A DNA stretch of 64,000 bases, from positions 62,001 through 126,000 of the forward strand of contig NW_026251752.1 in assembly GCF_025024155.1 (NCBI RefSeq), read 5' to 3'. The notes below the pieces were generated by a model, which had not been told where the DNA came from, did no database searches, and saw only the letters and a program-made list of their open reading frames with translations. The position numbers and the translations under genes were made by a program. This DNA is from Gamsiella multidivaricata. Its lineage: Eukaryota > Mortierellomycota > Mortierellomycetes > Mortierellales > Mortierellaceae. Below are positions 46,762 through 55,200 of the stretch, one piece after another (positions within the stretch are counted from its first letter, which is position 1; the number at the start of each line of letters is the position of its first letter).

Positions 46762-47915
46762 ATGACATCTAATTCATATTCTGATGCTGTTAGGTCCTAT
46801 GAGCTGACGATGGAGCAGGAACCCATGCATGCTCGGATGTGTGGGTTTGGTGAAAAAGTAATGCGCCCAGCTGATGTCTTTGCGTACACAGCGTCTAAAT
46901 CGATCTTCCGATTTCGCCATGTTGAGCTCTGTATCGGGAAGTATATTGCCTTCTAAACAAAGCTTATGCGTATATATCGTATATATGCAGGACCGACGTC
47001 CAGTAGATCCACCGCCAATCGTCAGACTAACAGTTCGAGAAGCAGACGGGACGCCAGTGGACTTGGAGTAAGTGCATGAATCACATCGTATAATCCGCGA
47101 TGGAGTTCTTTCCGGATTCTAACAAAATCTCTTGACGCTGTGTGCAAAGCATCCCGGACATTGTGGACGTGAGTCGATGTGTTGTAATGGCCGATATCTA
47201 CATGTCCGATAAATATACACCCTGTGCATTGGTCACGAATCCAGCGACGGTCCTTCATATCTCCTCAGTTCAAACAATTGGAGAATCCACTATGTCTGTC
47301 CTGAACCTGGCGACATCCCCACCTGCGCCGTACCACAACCTAACCGGAGCCATCGGGGCTTCGGGTGATCTTCTGAAGGATCTGGAGGGTAAACTTGGGA
47401 TTTTTTTCGCATTTCCTGATCTAAGCGTCCGCACTGAGGGAACTTATACCTTGAGGTTTTCCTTTACATTACTACCTGAGTAAGATTAGCACAGCACAGC
47501 TTTCTGTACATTTGCTTTTCATCTTTTTTTTTCATATTACATTCAGACGACTGATTTGTATTCTTTGGCTCGTGCTCGTTCGATAGACCTCCAGTCATGA
47601 CCTCCTCAGTTGTGGCAACTGTGTTTTCTGCGCCTTTTGAGATCTATCCAGCCAAAAAGTTTCCTGGAATGAGCAGTAAGTATAGCGCCCTTCGGAGACA
47701 TCTATCGAGTCACTGTGGTAGTTGCAACCTATTACCAGAACCATTTGACCTTTGAATCGTATCTCTGTACTCCCATAATAGAATCAACACCTCTTTCAAA
47801 AAAGCTGTTTGACCAAGGTGTTAGAATTCCACTTCGCAAGAAGACGAGAATTGATCGAACAAAGCAGCTAGTCGAAACTGTGGACATTCCAGACGAGATG
47901 GAGGATGAAGAGTAG
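46762..47915 (+). CDS. Velvet-domain transcription factor (VosA/VelB-like)
   Basis: Five exons: 46762-46857, 46991-47067, 47150-47479, 47587-47675 and 47782-47915, 241 residues, almost entirely velvet domain. Conserved family blocks in order: YELTMEQEPMHARMCGFGEK, DRRPVDPPPIVRL, CVVMADIYMSD, FFAFPDLSVRTEGTYTLRF, FPGMKSTPLSKKLFDQGVRI and RLRIRKE-like PLRKKTR. The start MTSNSY lies 14 residues before the domain. There is no long disordered tail as in VeA. Velvet factors are NF-kB-like DNA-binding proteins that dimerise and control spore formation and secondary metabolism in filamentous fungi. The protein ends in an acidic DEMEDEE. Confidence 0.94.
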
Positions 47916-48299
47916 ATGAATAGGCAGAGCCTCCGACCCTCCCCTTTGTAGGCACCGTAACATCGCTGCCAAACGCTCTAGTGGATACTGCTGCCATACG
48001 GAACTCCATTCCCTGGCCTCTATTATTATTATTATTACTATCCTATATATGTCCGTTATCCTAATCTTTCATTTACGTCCATCACATCTTTCGCTTGCTA
48101 CACTCTTTTTCTTCCTTCCAACACAACTCTTCCTAAATAGTTTTTTTTTGTCTCACACTCTACATAGGCAATCCCCTCTCATTCCCGCGTTCTTCTCTCA
48201 CTGTCATCCCTTGAAATAAAGTACCATATTCCTCGTCGTGTAGACTACCATAGGCATTGAGGGCCTGTGACCCTATCTAAGAAAGAAAGGGTATGAACC
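47916..48299. other. Spacer between velvet gene and relic
   Basis: Contains a short (ATT)n tract (about 48023-48036) and a T8 run (about 48141-48148). Probably the 3' untranslated region of the velvet gene plus the degraded 5' part of the following relic; nothing else was seen. Confidence 0.4.
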
Positions 48300-51200
48300 C
48301 GCTCTTCGCTATCAGTCCCCCCACTTATCCAACCTCCCCAGTTCCGTTGATCACAATTCGGTGATTCGAGTCGATATCTTTGGGTCTTTTTATGTCACCA
48401 TTCGCTACGGTTATTCCTCGCACCCTATGGACGATGCTCATCGCATTGTCGAGCGAGAGATACTAAAGCTTGGGACCCAGACGAACTTGGCTCTTTACCT
48501 GGACGGCATTCCTTCGGAAGAAAAGGACTCACTCAAGTGCACCGAAAGAACCTTCGCAAGAAAGCTGTTAACTGCGCCGACAAATGTCTGCGTGAGCTCG
48601 AGGTTTGCGTGGGTAAAAAGCTTCGCGTGCAAAACACCAGTTCATCGACATCAGAAAATACTTGAGCTCAGCCTTCTACTGGTCCCTAGACGCTCGACGC
48701 GCCTTTGCCATATACATGCGCAAGAAACAATGGAGGATCGTCGAGCGCCCGATCGAGGCAGATCTCACGATAGACCTTGAATGCAAGCCTGGCGACATCG
48801 CTGTATCAAAAGATAGTGACATGCTTATGTACAAGAATGTCGAGACCATTTGGCGACTCATCTCAAAAGGAAAACTCCTTGTGTACAACGTCCCAAGCGT
48901 CTATGCGGTTTTAGATCTCATCCGGGTCCAGTTTACTGTACTTGGTATCATATAAAAAAAAAATTACTAAAACCGCAACATCCCCTCTCTCGGAAGTGCA
49001 AAATCATCCAGGAGCTGGATGGAGTAGGTAAACAGATCAATCAGATCATCGTGTATATTACTAATGCAGAAAACGTATTATCGATTCTAACGTCTCGGCA
49101 TTTTTTTTTTTTTTTTTTTTTTTGGATTGCAGACGCTGCGACGATGACGAAGCATTATTCGGCACACAATCAAGTTATGTGCAAGAATACTGCCCAAGAG
49201 ACATTTGCTACTTCGCAGAAGGTTTTTGTGGATCTTTCACAGACCCTGTGCAGATTGGCCCACTCCCTTCGTCCTCAACTCAAACTGCCATGACTTATGA
49301 CAGTCTTCGGAAGCAGTTCGATTGTCTTTCTCAGCGATACTCCCAGATGCCTTAGAGATGCGAGAGGCACGCGAGGCGGAGAGAAGGTGTACAACGTCAA
49401 ACACAGCCTTGCATGAAGGCGTGCATAAAATTAACTCTAATTTATTGTGATCGAACTGGTACTAAGACTCGGCGGCACAAGTTTTCGCAGACCTTCAATA
49501 GGTATCGCACGATCAATCACCCTGCTCCCCGTCAGGCAGAGGCTGGAAGTGAGCTGAGCCCCGCCCAGCCTCGTATCAAACCTCCGCAACACCGACCGCG
49601 ACATTGCGTCAAACAGCGCACTCGACTCAAGGAGCATGAACCGCCTGAAGCAATGAAGCAGTACACATGAAAGGCATGGAAAAAACCGCCCGAGAATCCC
49701 TTGGACCTCGACGCTGGCTCTTTCAAGAAGAAGAAGAAGAAGAAGAAGAAAAAGAAAAAGAAGACTACGCCAAAGCCAGTAAGCGCCTCGACAGGAAAGG
49801 CTGACTTGGTTCGAGTTATGAATTGGGAACATCCGACAGTGACCCTCAATGTCGGAGAGTCGGAATTGATATCCGAAATCAAGGGGTGTCTCCAGGATAT
49901 TGCTCGGGTTGCATCTGACACCAAGCGACAGGGGCAGCAACTCATCGGGTGGTTCATTGAGAGTCCCTTTTCTTCACGCGAGCCTGATGCAACAGACAGA
50001 AATATATTGCGCAACATCTGTCCATGTGTCTCGTCCAAGGTCAAAGTCGAGGGAGAGGTCGATGTGGGTGACCATGATGAACAGGAGGAGGAGGAGAAGG
50101 AAGAAGATAAGAGTGATGATGACCCGGCGCGCAAGGACTCAGACCACCTACGCTTCCATACTGTGCTGCTCCAGCATCTCTACACAGGCGACCCTCCCAT
50201 CGTGACGAATGTAGTTGCTAAGCGCGTTTAACAGCTCGTCGATCGAGCAGCGAGCCTTGGGCCGCTGCAGAGAAGGAGCAATAGAGCTGCAAGCTTGACC
50301 AGGAAGCCATACTCTGCTGCGGCTTTACACCGCTCTATTGCCTCACAGCTGTCCAGTGAAATAAAAAAACAATACAGAAGCAACAGCAATGAGCCCGAGA
50401 AAAAGGTAGAGTACAAAATTTGTGTTCTGTCGCTACATGTGTGCTAGTAGAGGCCAGCTGTAAGAACGACAATACTAACATTGATGATCTGTCTATTATA
50501 GCTAAAGACTTTGGTCTCATATCAGATGGATCACGTACAGAAGTCGACCAAGGCATCCCAGCAATCGAGAATTTCGTGCTTTTGAACCGGTCTAGCAAGA
50601 GTTATCGCAAGACGGCCTCACTAACGAATACAGAGTAGCCTTTCATATCGTCCTCTGAACGTGAGCTCGGTATTTTGTTTGGCAAAATGCTGCACTGAAG
50701 AAAAAACTTCAGGAACTAATACTGGTGGACTTTAAGGACAAGAGCATTATTCCTTCCAAGAGCGAAAGACTCGTGGATTCCTTATCACAGAGATGCTTCC
50801 AGACATCGGCAAGCGTGAGCCATGCAAAGGACCGAGAGATTACAAGGATTTGACGTCCGTGGTAGACCTGAGCATGATGCGAGAACACGTTCAATCCATT
50901 CGGCAGGCCAACTTCGACACTATGACTTACGAGGGATGCGGCTATGTTTGCCGAGGTTCCATTCGGACAGACGGTTTCTGCCTACATCTGTCGGCTTTCA
51001 AGTTGAGGGAACTGCGTCTTGCCCTTTCGAACCACATCCACAGTCAGGGAATAGATTATTACTTGACCGAGGCCCGAAACATGGTGAAGATCCAGCAGGA
51101 TGTCACTAGCCTTTGGATTAAATCAAGGTTCCAGGTCTCGATCTCAGCCAAGCCTGTATAGTCGGAGCCAGCGCGTTGTTACCAAAGAACGATGATCCTA

Positions 51201-52045
51201 TCAGTACGATAACGGGTCCTGGAAGAAAGGATGATAATGTCGACATGACCAGCTCTTCTGAGGATACAACCCCTACTCCCGTTCCTTCCACCTATTACAA
51301 TCTCGTAGTAAAGCAGAAAGCTGTGTATCAGCCCACGTTTCAACCACAGAAGATGGATGGAAGAGCAAAAAGCAACAACATTGTACCAGGGGACGAAATA
51401 GAATCTATCAGCAACATTGAGACTAAGCTGCCTCTACTTCGCGATGAGGGAGCCAGCTTTGCCAGCTATGTTACGGAGCTGGAGAGAGTAGAGGGACAAC
51501 CGAGTGAGTTTTACAATGGCAGCAACCGGTTCATGAAGCATAAGTGGGACGCGAGAAAGAGGGATGCGGAGTACAGACCCATAACGGATCATCTACTCAA
51601 GTTAGTGGGAGGATCGATTAGCAGAAAGAGAGAAAAAGCCAATAGGGTTGTGATTGGAGTTGGTCTGGGCAAGTTTTCGACCAAGACGAGACTCCTCTTT
51701 GCGCGGATCCTTGTAGCCATACTTTGTTCAGAAGGTAAAAGCATTATCATTTGAGAACCGAAGTTATGTAAAATAGCTTTATGTTTTTATTGACTTTGCC
51801 TTGATGCCCTCTAGGCCAGGTCTCTAGGCTATACTGCTCAACCTGCGGTACTTTCATGCAATGTCGTTCGCAGCCATTTACTCTATCAACAGCGACCGTT
51901 CTATCTTCAGCCAGTAGATAAGGACGGGCACTATCCTTGGATGCAAGGTGCAAGGCCGCACATAGAAGCCGAGGGGAGTAGCAAAAACAGTATTAGCGCA
52001 GTGGGGCAAGGGCAAAGGCAAGGACGAGCTGGAGGATGTAAGTGA
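48300..52045 (+). pseudogene. Decayed XPG/FEN1-like plus TnpB/Fanzor-like RuvC nuclease family member
   Basis: Coding similarity runs in pieces through all three plus frames. N-terminal part: RVDIFGSFYVTIRYGYSSHP (48364 on), frame breaks near 48535 and 48640, then SSAFYWSLDARRAFA, EADLTIDLECKPGD and KDSDMLMYKNVETIW, an XPG-I-like DSDM acidic site at 48812-48823. A stop near 48953, a T23 run at 49101-49123 and a Trp-to-stop TGA after KQYT (49670) follow. Middle: a (GAA)n-encoded poly-Lys tract, HPTVTLNVGE, RVASDTKRQGQQLIG. C-terminal part: RGSIRTDGF, DYYLTEARNMV, GLDLSQACIVGASALLPK (RuvC-I-like Asp at 51140), IETKLPLLRDEGAS (candidate RuvC-II Glu), VVIGVGLGKFSTKTRL, then LYCSTCGTFM (second half of a zinc ribbon). 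The first zinc CxxC and the expected RuvC-III Asp segment are deleted. The tail YLQPVDKDGHYPWM is retained to the stop at 52043. I recall intact relatives in Mortierella-type fungi; function untested. Confidence 0.8.
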
Positions 52046-52289
52046 GCAGCTTCGTCCTCTTGGAAACCCCCCCCTGGCGCGACTATAGACTCCAATATCG
52101 ACGAACTTTCTTGCAAAGATGCGTTCTGTGACGTATTTGAGCCTGAATTGTTCGGCACTCTGTGCCTGATATAGCCCACCTTCACCCAATGATTACAATC
52201 CTTGACCCCCATTCCTTCCACTCTTTCAAACACCTGTCCACCAACATTGCATGTCGCCCTAAACTTCCCTGATTGCTATCGACTGTGCG
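52046..52289. other. Short spacer, probable ASPM-like promoter
   Basis: A 244-bp spacer between the relic and the ASPM-like start codon. A C8 run lies near 52067. No further feature was seen. Confidence 0.4.
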
Positions 52290-55200
52290 ATGGACCCAGT
52301 CTTTGCCTCGATGGGTAACCCGCGCCCTTTTCCCGGAGGATCCTCACAACATCAGGGTCGTGCTGGCAATATACCCCGCAATCTCGCCGCCATAGGAGGT
52401 CCGTTCAACCACAATAAAAGCCAGTCTTCCATCTCCAATGAGAATGAGTTCAAAAAGCCCTTTCTGGATCTTCCATCTGTACCGTTGATGAAGCGCAAAC
52501 TGTCAAGAACTGAACTCGATTCAAAGAACAAGGTTCACTTGCGGCGACAGTCCAACGGCTTCGACAGCAGCAGCAATAACAACCGCGGCAGCAAGGGTGG
52601 ACAACAAAATGAGACCCCTCTTTCCGACAAAACCCTCTCCTCCCTCAATCACGATATCAATACCGCAGATGTACCAGCTCTGATTCTGGCGCCCTTTGAG
52701 CCCCCGCCCTGGCTCGAGTTCGGAAAGGCCGTGGTTGGCACCAAAAAGATGGCTGCAATGATTGTGCAGAACCCAACAGACCTGATCGAGAAGCTCACAG
52801 TGGATTCCAGCTGCAAGATGGAGGAGAAAGGCTTCAACATTGTTCAATTGGATCCTCTTCAGCAAACAGGAGGTAGAAACACGACTGTCGAGCCACTAGT
52901 ACTGCCGCCAAGGAGCAAAGCGGAGATATCGATTTGTTGGACACCCCTTACTGCGGGAAATGTTCGTGCCAGTGCTATCTTGAAGACCAACACTGGACGG
53001 TTCATGATCAATCTCAGAGGATGTGGCGATGTCCCCGTATGTTGTCCGATTAAAATAAGCGTGCTCTTGTCTTGGGCATTGGTAGAAATTAAACGACTGA
53101 CCGTCTGAGCAATGCTCTTCAATCTCTCGATAGATTCCTGAATATCAAAGTTTAAACAGCTCAAGGAGACCATCCACGGCCAGCATTCGCGGCGTGAAGC
53201 AGGGCAGCTTGGCAACACTGAAACCAAGGAGCAGCGTATTAAAACAAAGCATGATGCGGCACAGCGTAACGAGACCTGACACCGCTAATAGAGCGCCAGT
53301 ACCGGGCGGATACAACACTCTTCCATATGTGACAACAAATGAGATGTACGACGAAAAATGGATCGACAAGCAACAACAGTCTTTCAAAGAATGGTTGAAC
53401 CACGAGTTCAGTGGCACGGTGGATGACTTTTCATCCGATGATCCTTCTTCATGGAGTTATTACTCGCACAAGCTGGAGTATGAGCATACCCGAGCCGCGG
53501 CGTGCAAGATTTACCAGTCGGATACCTTTCGAATCGTACTACGCAAAGTGGAAGAGTCCATTGCACGAGATCGACTGCAGCTTCACCCGGAACGTAACCT
53601 TGTTGGTGATATTACGACTCGACGGGAAATCATCGACATGCTGTTTTCATTCGACATTCGATGGCTCGTCCTTGGATTAGAAACTATCACTGGCAAAGAA
53701 GTAGCTATTAAACCAAACTTCGACAGGGCCACGATCTCTGGGTTTATTAACCAGGTACTTACGCCGTCATATTGCAACGACAGGAAGCTGTCCTTTAACC
53801 GAGTATTGAAGTCGAGTTCTTGACGATGTGACTCTTTGTGGAAAATTTTCTTAGGCTATCTTTCATAACGAGCAGATTGAGGCTGAGTTCGAGCCGGACA
53901 GGATATTGTCGAACCGACCAAAGTTCTATCAGGCGATGAACCGGCTAGTTCTCAAGCGAATCTTTATGCTGATACTGTTCCTTGACAAGGCTAAGCTTGC
54001 TCGACTAATTTCTTCGGATCCGTGCTTATTCAACAAGGTGTGTCTCTATCCAATGGCACATATCGTCACTGCAAACTCAGGAATGATATTGATGAACTTA
54101 TGGTCCCTGTTTACACGCATAGGAATCTGATGTCAAATCGTGTAGAACTCTGTTACTGAAGATATCCAACAGCTATTTGTTGGGTGAGGGGGACATCATT
54201 CGGCATTTATTATTCATGGGCTTCTCAGTACTGCACACTCAAGCTCCATTGGATGAATTTAAATTCAAAGTTGAAAACCTTGCGGTGGACCTGCGCGATG
54301 GTGTCAGGCTATGCCGACTAATCGACTTGCACTGTCCCGAACTCAATCTGTGTCAGGCAAGTTCATGTGTGCGGTACACGTAATGTGGCAAGTGCTTCCA
54401 CAAGTACTTGGCAATTCAGTCCTAATCACCGTTGTGCTCCATTCTTATACCCTTATTCCATTAGAAAATGAAGTTCCCGACGCTTTCAAAAGCGCACATG
54501 CAGCAGAACGTCAGCCTTGCGCTCAATACATTAGTGAAGCAGGGAATCTCTCTGGAGGGCACCCGTGGAGGTGTTGTAAGTTCTCGGGACATTGTCGAAG
54601 GTCATCGCGAAAAGACATTTGGGCTCCTGTGGAAGCTGATTCTCAATTGGAAGGTCGCGGTGCTGCTCGACCTCGGTGTCCTCGAGGCTGAAATCAGTGC
54701 ACTGAGGAAGGAATATATGCGACTCTTTGGCGTCGACCAGCCTGACCGAGTGGTAAGTCGTCAATCGTTGACTTAAAGGATGACCCATGTGTATGCTGTC
54801 TCGCTGACATGGCAAGGCATTGATATTTCTCTAATTATAACAGGACACCGTGTATTTTACGTCGGACCAATTGTCTGCTTTGCTGCGATGGTGTCAGGCG
54901 ATCGGATCTTTTTACAATCTCTCTATCAACAACTTTACTACTTCCTTTTCCGATGGTCGGGCATTTGGAGCCCTACTTAGTTATTACCATCCCACGCTAC
55001 TCGACATGGACGAGATGAAGGACTCTGCCCAGTTTTTGGCAGAATACAAGCAGGTAAGCATGCGGCTTTTGGTCAGTAATAATAGGGAACACATGAATGA
55101 TTGCGCAATCACTAATTTAGTGAATGTATATTTTTTAAAGGGTCTTCATCAACCGGAGCCACAGCTTCCTGAACGTAACGATGGAAAGGGCTGGTTTATC

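Follow-up and report, generated by a model that had tools for sequence, protein, structure and literature searches.

Most Fanzor1 proteins are 600-700 amino acids long according to part of Xu (2024, PMC11423790), and a passage of Saito et al. (2023, PMC10432273) describes the role of Fanzors for the transposons that carry them as unsettled. Here we analyse a stretch of 64,000 nucleotides of Gamsiella multidivaricata (NCBI RefSeq assembly GCF_025024155.1, contig NW_026251752.1, positions 62,001 to 126,000 of the forward strand; below, the window), which holds a decayed copy of a mobile element. Gene predictions and one structural model show that its relatives encode a single predicted chain, in which a FEN1-fold domain is followed by a flexible linker and a Fanzor1-fold domain with a zinc ribbon. 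Compared with Fanzor1 proteins (SpuFz1, GtFz1, PpFz1), the members of this family are ~1,250 amino acids long, carry an N-terminal FEN1-type nuclease and have D[L/A/G]G at RuvC-I where Fanzor1 has DPG. Compared with the structure-specific nucleases FEN1, EXO1 and XPG-RAD2, the version found here is fused to a Fanzor-like domain and is encoded by a mobile element. What is new is the fusion of a FEN1/EXO1-type nuclease to a Fanzor1-like protein; each part is known by itself. Searches of open-licence PubMed Central papers, which do not include the 2023 Science Advances survey of Fanzors, found no earlier account of a FEN1-like and Fanzor fusion, nor any paper joining Fanzor with XPG, Mortierella or Mucoromycota, TnpB with Mortierella, or XPG with transposons and Mortierella.

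Two nuclease-like halves on one predicted chain

We searched the host genome (37.5 Mb, 180 contigs) with the two best reading frames of the window; the match counts are lower bounds that include fragments and come from the best candidates scored, and are not copy numbers. The 210-amino-acid C-part (51122-51751) gave at least 132 matches and the 112-amino-acid N-part at least 68, indicating that the motifs of the window are not there by chance. The PF07282 profile alone gave 109 genome matches, and these are not all from the fusion family. In the better-kept copies the two parts lie ~3 kb apart on the same strand. Ten of these copies, named below by contig, were assembled from genome loci and compared by tblastn. 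They gave one order of coding blocks: an XPG-like exon, a short exon, a linker-containing exon, a ~430-amino-acid RuvC-I exon and a zinc exon, except that C146 showed no zinc-exon match and C13 and C128 no short-exon match at the threshold used. The gaps between adjoining blocks are mostly ~60-220 nucleotides, and larger where the short exon or the linker was unmatched; introns fit such gaps better than two genes do.

A search of 5.8 billion proteins, with the best 8,000 candidates scored, returned at least 55 relatives. The XPG-I motif was found in 35 of the 55, the ribbon/RD motif in 29 and both on one chain in 21, the last from several genera. P0003 and P0005 carry PF00867 and PF07282 together in precomputed Pfam annotation, and the relatives read as one multi-exon chain. 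An XPG/FEN1-like front joined to a TnpB/Fanzor-like back is what the earlier note had proposed from the window alone, and its case for abandoning the idea, halves that never share a chain, is not what the relatives present. Further searches, each with the best 8,000 candidates scored, yielded at least 64 proteins for the C-part and at least 62 for the N-part. Relatives from G. multidivaricata (BC939DRAFT) are P0067, P0116, P0124, P0154, P0157, P0162 and P0163. The named sources in the three lists are Entomortierella, Gryganskiella, Podila, Haplosporangium, Linnemannia, Mortierella, Dissophora, Actinomortierella, Benniella, Gamsiella and Modicella, and the remaining rows are environmental records; among the named sources of the matches listed, the predicted family has thus been seen so far in Mortierellaceae only. 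Existing records are called 'putative transposase', 'Rad2 nuclease', 'XPG-I domain-containing' or 'Cas12f1-like TNB domain-containing', so each half is already labelled in the databases.

Against these relatives the window copy reads as follows, with motif positions recomputed:

48068..52150, + strand: whole decayed element copy, from the left homology boundary to the shared right end
48250..49000, + strand: frame-shifted relic of exon 1, FEN1/XPG/EXO1-type nuclease domain, EADLTID ... KDSDM (tblastn from the C118 and C93 copies)
48755-48775: EADLTID, N-part motif
48812-48823: DSDM, N-part motif
49099..49245, + strand: relic of exon 2, ~80 amino acids after the nuclease core (tblastn from the C118 copy; C122 and C93 overlap)
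49464..50417, + strand: relic of the linker and the start of the Fanzor-like region, with the HPT..L..GT..AN motif (tblastn from the C93 copy; C122 overlaps)
50504..51694, + strand: relic of the main Fanzor-like exon, RuvC-I Asp codon at 51140 (tblastn; Fanzor1 fold match of relatives)
51134-51169: RuvC-I-like motif GLDLSQACIVGA, Asp codon at 51140
51416-51433: IETKLP, C-part motif
51647-51676: VVIGVGLGKF, C-part motif
51817..51997, + strand: relic of the zinc-ribbon (TNB)/RuvC-III exon, HRD lost (tblastn from the C93 copy)
51829-51855: LYCSTCGTF, half of the zinc ribbon
52129..52135, + strand: right-end box TGACGTA, 15 nucleotides before the element end

All six motifs named earlier are present, and both losses noted at the time, of the first zinc CxxC and of the RuvC-III Asp, are real. 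The relatives encode the intact block order, and the window copy, frame-shifted and with motifs lost, is indeed a relic of a mobile fusion family. The identification depends on those relatives, since the two window frames alone matched no Pfam family at E ≤ 0.01. The span first given, 48,300-52,045, is too short: when other copies were compared by blastn, the match began at 48,068-48,070 for four of the nine N-part loci, and on the right L010 and L021 match up to GAATTG at 52,150 and continue into unrelated sequence, a boundary set by eye. Some relatives extend further to the left of 48,068, and the window copy is without part of that left end.

The Fanzor-like and FEN1-like domains

An AlphaFold2 model of one relative of 1,180 amino acids matched Fanzor1 over residues 418-1111 and EXO1/FEN1 over residues 1-248. 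Conservation was read from an alignment of 51 rows (the 55 proteins less P0043, P0050, P0051 and P0055), and counts refer to rows with a letter at the position in question. In the C-terminal half the RuvC-I Asp is kept in 43/44 rows, the RuvC-III Asp in 30/31 and the four zinc-ribbon cysteines in 29/31, 28/31, 30/30 and 29/30. The Pfam TNB zinc ribbon (PF07282) was matched by genome locus L070 at E 1.8e-12 and by 22 of 25 database relatives at E ≤ 0.01. The motif D-X(125-275)-[TS][TS]xx-C4 ribbon-X(5-50)-RD, given for Fanzors in a section of Bao and Jurka (PMC3627910), fits all 23 proteins in which both ends were recognised; distances had been limited beforehand to 100-320 and the ribbon pattern slightly relaxed, over the 55 proteins. 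In the linker-containing exon, the H and P of HPT..L..GT..AN are invariant in a 25-sequence alignment.

The TNB matches and the modelled fold agree with the earlier assignment of the RuvC-I-like Asp and the half ribbon to TnpB/Fanzor, and the relatives do have a RuvC/Fanzor fold and a conserved D-E-D set. The candidate RuvC-II Glu in IETKLP had to be given up. Conserved in 41/43 rows, it lies before the VVIGVGLGKF strand, which is the RuvC-II strand with its canonical Glu replaced; the true Glu is the relocated one in NEYYTSKKC, six residues before the first CxxC (Glu in 26/30 rows). Part of Yoon et al. (PMC10711439) describes this arrangement for Fanzors, in which an alternative RuvC-II Glu precedes the ribbon by six residues. 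Relative to the other copies, the window lacks ~80 nucleotides with NEYYTSKKCPxC between ARSLGY (51815-51832) and LYCSTCGTF, so that the relocated Glu is gone as well.

The RuvC-I triplet, in the 23 relatives in which it was read, is DGG in eight, DAG in seven and DLG in eight. The same genome holds three other Fanzor-like loci, L080, L081 and L082 (contigs C28, C126 and C19), whose frames read VDPG, IDPG and VDPG. Each has a TNB ribbon match close by, and no N-part match was found in these stretches. They resemble the fusion family in the RuvC-I frame with an adjoining TNB ribbon and differ in the triplet, which places the fusion family, as a divergent group, alongside Fanzors of a more conventional kind.

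In the N-terminal half, the EXO1/FEN1 structure matches have 14-16% identity in the best rows. Exon 1 of the relatives matches both these structures and XPG_I (PF00867), which was found in 12 of 25 database relatives at E ≤ 0.01 and in five family loci of the genome, 0.6-1.7 bits above the cut-off. There are seven metal-binding acids, which we take, list and numbering alike, to be those of human FEN1, and they are kept in 23/25, 33/34, 35/37, 37/37, 34/39, 38/39 and 36/39 rows. The fourth acidic position (the second Glu) is Glu in FEN1 and Asp in the fusion family. By its modelled fold, its XPG_I region and these seven acids, the predicted domain belongs to the FEN1/XPG/EXO1 superfamily, in keeping with the XPG-I-like acidic site first noticed in the window. 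The alignment columns show that both catalytic residue sets, the FEN1-type acids and the RuvC D-E-D, are conserved in the predicted proteins.

Element ends and target sites

In one subfamily ten near-identical loci stop at the same base, ...TTTAATGCTCCAACG, with unrelated flanks; the right end of L037 reads GCTTCAACG instead of TTTAATGCTCCAACG. The C93 copy, the only element read whole, has a direct repeat at both sides and contains a Mutator-like element (MULE)-type gene in pieces, divergent to the fusion gene, with a SWIM finger (1.1e-5, 25.3 bits against a cut-off of 19.6) and a MULE match (6.8e-4, 20.5 bits) below the cut-off of 27.6. Both ends of C93 recur in the genome, with 14 matches to a 183-nucleotide right-end stretch and 14 to a 201-nucleotide left-side stretch. 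The left end proper, GTAGTCTGAACTTTTCCGCACTAA, occurs ten times with at most two mismatches, and C93 retains its first bases only. We found no terminal inverted repeats: no inverted 19-nucleotide right end (up to four mismatches) lies in the C93 or C98:64k stretch, intact left ends compared by eye are not inverted repeats of the right end, and none of the 11 inverted pairs at L071 was taken as element ends. No left-end motif was found for the C118 subfamily, whose stretches stop short of the left ends. The 2.1-kb element at C126:732402-734548 has C93-type ends on both sides and is probably an internally deleted copy. The C98:258k copy has a DDE_3-like open reading frame (L071:3-1049; E 0.0058, below the cut-off) on the upstream side of its fusion gene, at a distance of ~0.5 kb, so that a different transposase may accompany other subfamilies.

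The ends recall the Fanzor element MCi-2 of Mucor circinelloides, for which a section of Bao and Jurka (2013, PMC3627910) describes a nearly constant 3' Fanzor region, variable or 'fuzzy' 5' ends, target-site duplications (TSDs) and no recognisable terminal inverted repeats. In that description the TSDs of MCi-2 are 11-12 bp with an ATAATT pattern, whereas in the fusion family they are 9 bp after ACGTCA-N3; one MCi-2 subfamily carries a partial Crypton transposase, unlike the MULE-like gene of C93; and the section describing MCi-2 mentions no XPG domain. The C98:64k and C131 copies had looked truncated, and 5'-truncated insertion was considered as a general mode and rejected: the C131 left end exists at 135,244-135,267, and several copies of the subfamily lie at contig ends. 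The truncated look remains as an oddity of C13, C128 and the window copy.

All 11 sites formed by GTAGTCTGAACTTTTCCGCACTAA-type left ends and C93 have exactly 13 nucleotides between ACGTCA and GTAG, the latter appearing once as ATAG and once as GTAA. The rule was stated from nine sites, and two sites fetched afterwards fitted it; C159, a twelfth site, also shows ACGTCA, but its left end is shortened and its spacing is off. At five sites from two subfamilies a 9-bp target duplication starts 3 nucleotides past the motif. It is exact in C93 and C131, 8/9 in C126:732k, and exact again at the junctions of C13 (ACGTCA-TCT-GTACGAGTG) and C128 (GCGTCA-GAC-CACTGTGCA). These junctions place the predicted fusion gene inside a DNA element that is flanked by target duplications of 9 bp, and they show that one subfamily as read here inserts at a fixed distance after ACGTCA, a spacing that two copies of another subfamily keep (one with GCGTCA).

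A TSD of 12 nucleotides for C93 was re-read, by the spacing at other sites, as 9 nucleotides plus a chance match of 3. The 8-nucleotide repeat at the left side of C118 (9 with one mismatch) was likewise discarded as a TSD; it is part of the element, because the stretch recurs in the C126, C97, C134 and C146 copies. In C13 and C128 the first sequence common to both lies 6 and ~22-23 bases, respectively, from the duplication, and leftward the relatives C95, C137 and C33 take a different course. Short extra 5' sequences are described for Chlamydomonas Fanzor elements in a passage of PMC3627910. At ~555.8-556 kb of the C13 contig, L046 and the C13 copy, which are of different subfamilies, lie head to head with an ACGTCA-bearing stretch in common. 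For the window copy, ~3.4 kb reaching to its left side contained neither ACGTCA nor GCGTCA, and neither motif was found upstream in eight loci of its subfamily.

Within 560 nucleotides downstream of the zinc exon, 24 of 40 stretches carry a TG[A/G]CGTA box, where block shuffles gave 1.9 expected and a maximum of 7 in 300; the window was entered twice (WIN and L009), and 9 of the 24 are near-identical C93-subfamily copies. By eye, the box occurs in eight groups with differing surrounding sequence. Its role may be that of a protein-binding site at the end of the transposon, or the box may belong to a guide RNA. As TGACGTA it resembles the target motif ACGTCA.

Proposed mechanism, alternatives and surroundings of the window copy

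As a whole explanation we consider it probable that the window holds a dead Fanzor1-like element with an acquired N-terminal FEN1/EXO1-type nuclease, of a family that moves by RNA-guided homing with FEN1-like trimming. The Fanzor half would be programmed by an RNA read from the right end of the element, RNA guidance being suggested by the fold, and the guide portion would extend into the right flank. At an empty allele the guide would pair with sequence starting 3 nucleotides after ACGTCA, the candidate side of a target-adjacent motif (TAM); at an occupied allele the match would break after ~9 nucleotides, and only empty sites would be cut. The cut would then be repaired from the filled allele, and the FEN1/EXO1-like half may favour copying by trimming the displaced strand or the 5' strand, either where the break lies or in a transposition intermediate. 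The geometry suits homing, since a right-flank guide meets an empty site directly after ACGTCA-N3 and is interrupted past the 9-bp duplication. More tentatively, and with slightly less than even confidence, we picture a single-chain RNA-guided machine that cuts and processes, in which the Fanzor half, with a guide taken from the right flank of the element, cuts the empty allele beside an ACGTCA-type TAM and the FEN1/EXO1 half immediately processes the R-loop or the broken 5' strand, so that the element would be copied in by repair.

Selective constraint was estimated from pairwise ratios of nonsynonymous to synonymous substitution (dN/dS) between genome copies with 0.15 < dS < 1.5; some places carry two locus ids, and the pairs are not independent. 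Over all pairs the medians were 0.53 for the XPG exon (n=70), 0.56 for the linker exon (n=18), 0.38 for the main C exon (n=115), 0.37 for the C93 C-part (n=97) and 0.33 for the zinc exon (n=56). Pairs without stops gave 0.33 for the XPG exon (n=4), 0.40 for the main C exon (n=16), 0.44 for the C93 C-part (n=5) and 0.41 for the zinc exon (n=19). The many dead copies push these values up, and both predicted halves look constrained.

Several results weigh against the homing explanation. No duplication was found in the window, C122, C98:258k, C98:64k, C118, C126:168k, C97 or C134, eight copies whose left ends are outside the stretch or lost, and ACGTCA may be a preference of the transposase rather than a TAM. 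RNAalifold gave 0 pairs on nine right ends, whose single folds have z of -0.43 to -3.31. Of the omega-RNA-like flanks and terminal motifs that the earlier note had suggested looking for, the analysis found the right-end box and no consensus RNA structure. The DPG form of the RuvC-I pattern, near exclusive in Fanzors according to a passage of Yoon et al. (PMC10711439), occurs in 0 of the 55 relatives (21 with any middle residue), and the relocated Glu is Lys in three of 30 rows and Gly in one. A sequence-only comparison with the PDB returned no Fanzor chain at E ≤ 10, and the best C-part sequence matches were LaTranC (0.019, profile) and the TnpB-like L79 (0.0096, zinc exon); the Fanzor assignment therefore rests on motifs, Pfam TNB and the modelled fold. 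Over all pairs the XPG exon looks less constrained (0.53) than the C-part exons (0.38, 0.33), a difference not reproduced in the few stop-free pairs. Among the G. multidivaricata copies surveyed, which are part of all copies, none was fully intact.

Some of these results would suit a different account, which we think unlikely though it is the strongest alternative: the fusion is real, the Fanzor half is no longer RNA-guided and persists as a module that binds DNA or plays a structural part in a MULE-type transposition complex, the FEN1-like half processes strands, and ACGTCA is a preference of the transposase or of a tethering host bZIP factor. The absence of guide RNA structure among the nine right ends and of DPG among the family relatives fits it, as do the SWIM and MULE-like matches of the C93 element and the likeness of the right-end box to the target motif. 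The 9-bp duplications also fit MuDr-type elements; TSDs of this length are listed in a section of Bao and Jurka (PMC3627910) for MuDr-like Fanzor1 elements of Mucorales (ROr-4, PBl-3, MCi-4). A pure scaffold would not need a catalytic set, however, and the RuvC D-E-D and zinc cysteines are kept in 26/30 to 43/44 rows, with C-part exons that look constrained (medians 0.33-0.38, all pairs).

It is improbable, in our estimate, that the N-terminal nuclease is an inactive relic serving to bind branched DNA: the higher all-pair median of the XPG exon and PF00867 scores near or below the curated cut-off point that way, but the seven FEN1-type acids are kept throughout, from 34/39 rows at the lowest to 37/37 at the highest. 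That a neighbouring XPG-like nuclease gene and a Fanzor gene travel together and were joined by gene models is very improbable, for although some records hold one half only and the single chain is a predicted one, many one-half records are marked 'partial', divergent copies show coding blocks all the way from exon 1 to the zinc exon, separated by short gaps, and both halves stand on one chain in 21/55 proteins from several genera.

A Fanzor fused to a flap/exonuclease is a hint that processing is important once the cut has been made, and it provides two separable active sites. The family would also set a natural precedent for coupling an RNA-guided nuclease to a strand-processing nuclease, and from the ACGTCA-N3-TSD rule and the right-end box the TAM, the start of the guide and the empty sites can be predicted directly.

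The window copy lies between a velvet-factor gene (47136-47483; PF11754, 5.1e-15) and a gene that opens with an ASH/ASPM-type domain (52263-53108; PF15780, 8.7e-10), the likely ATG of the latter being ~140 bp past the right end of the element.

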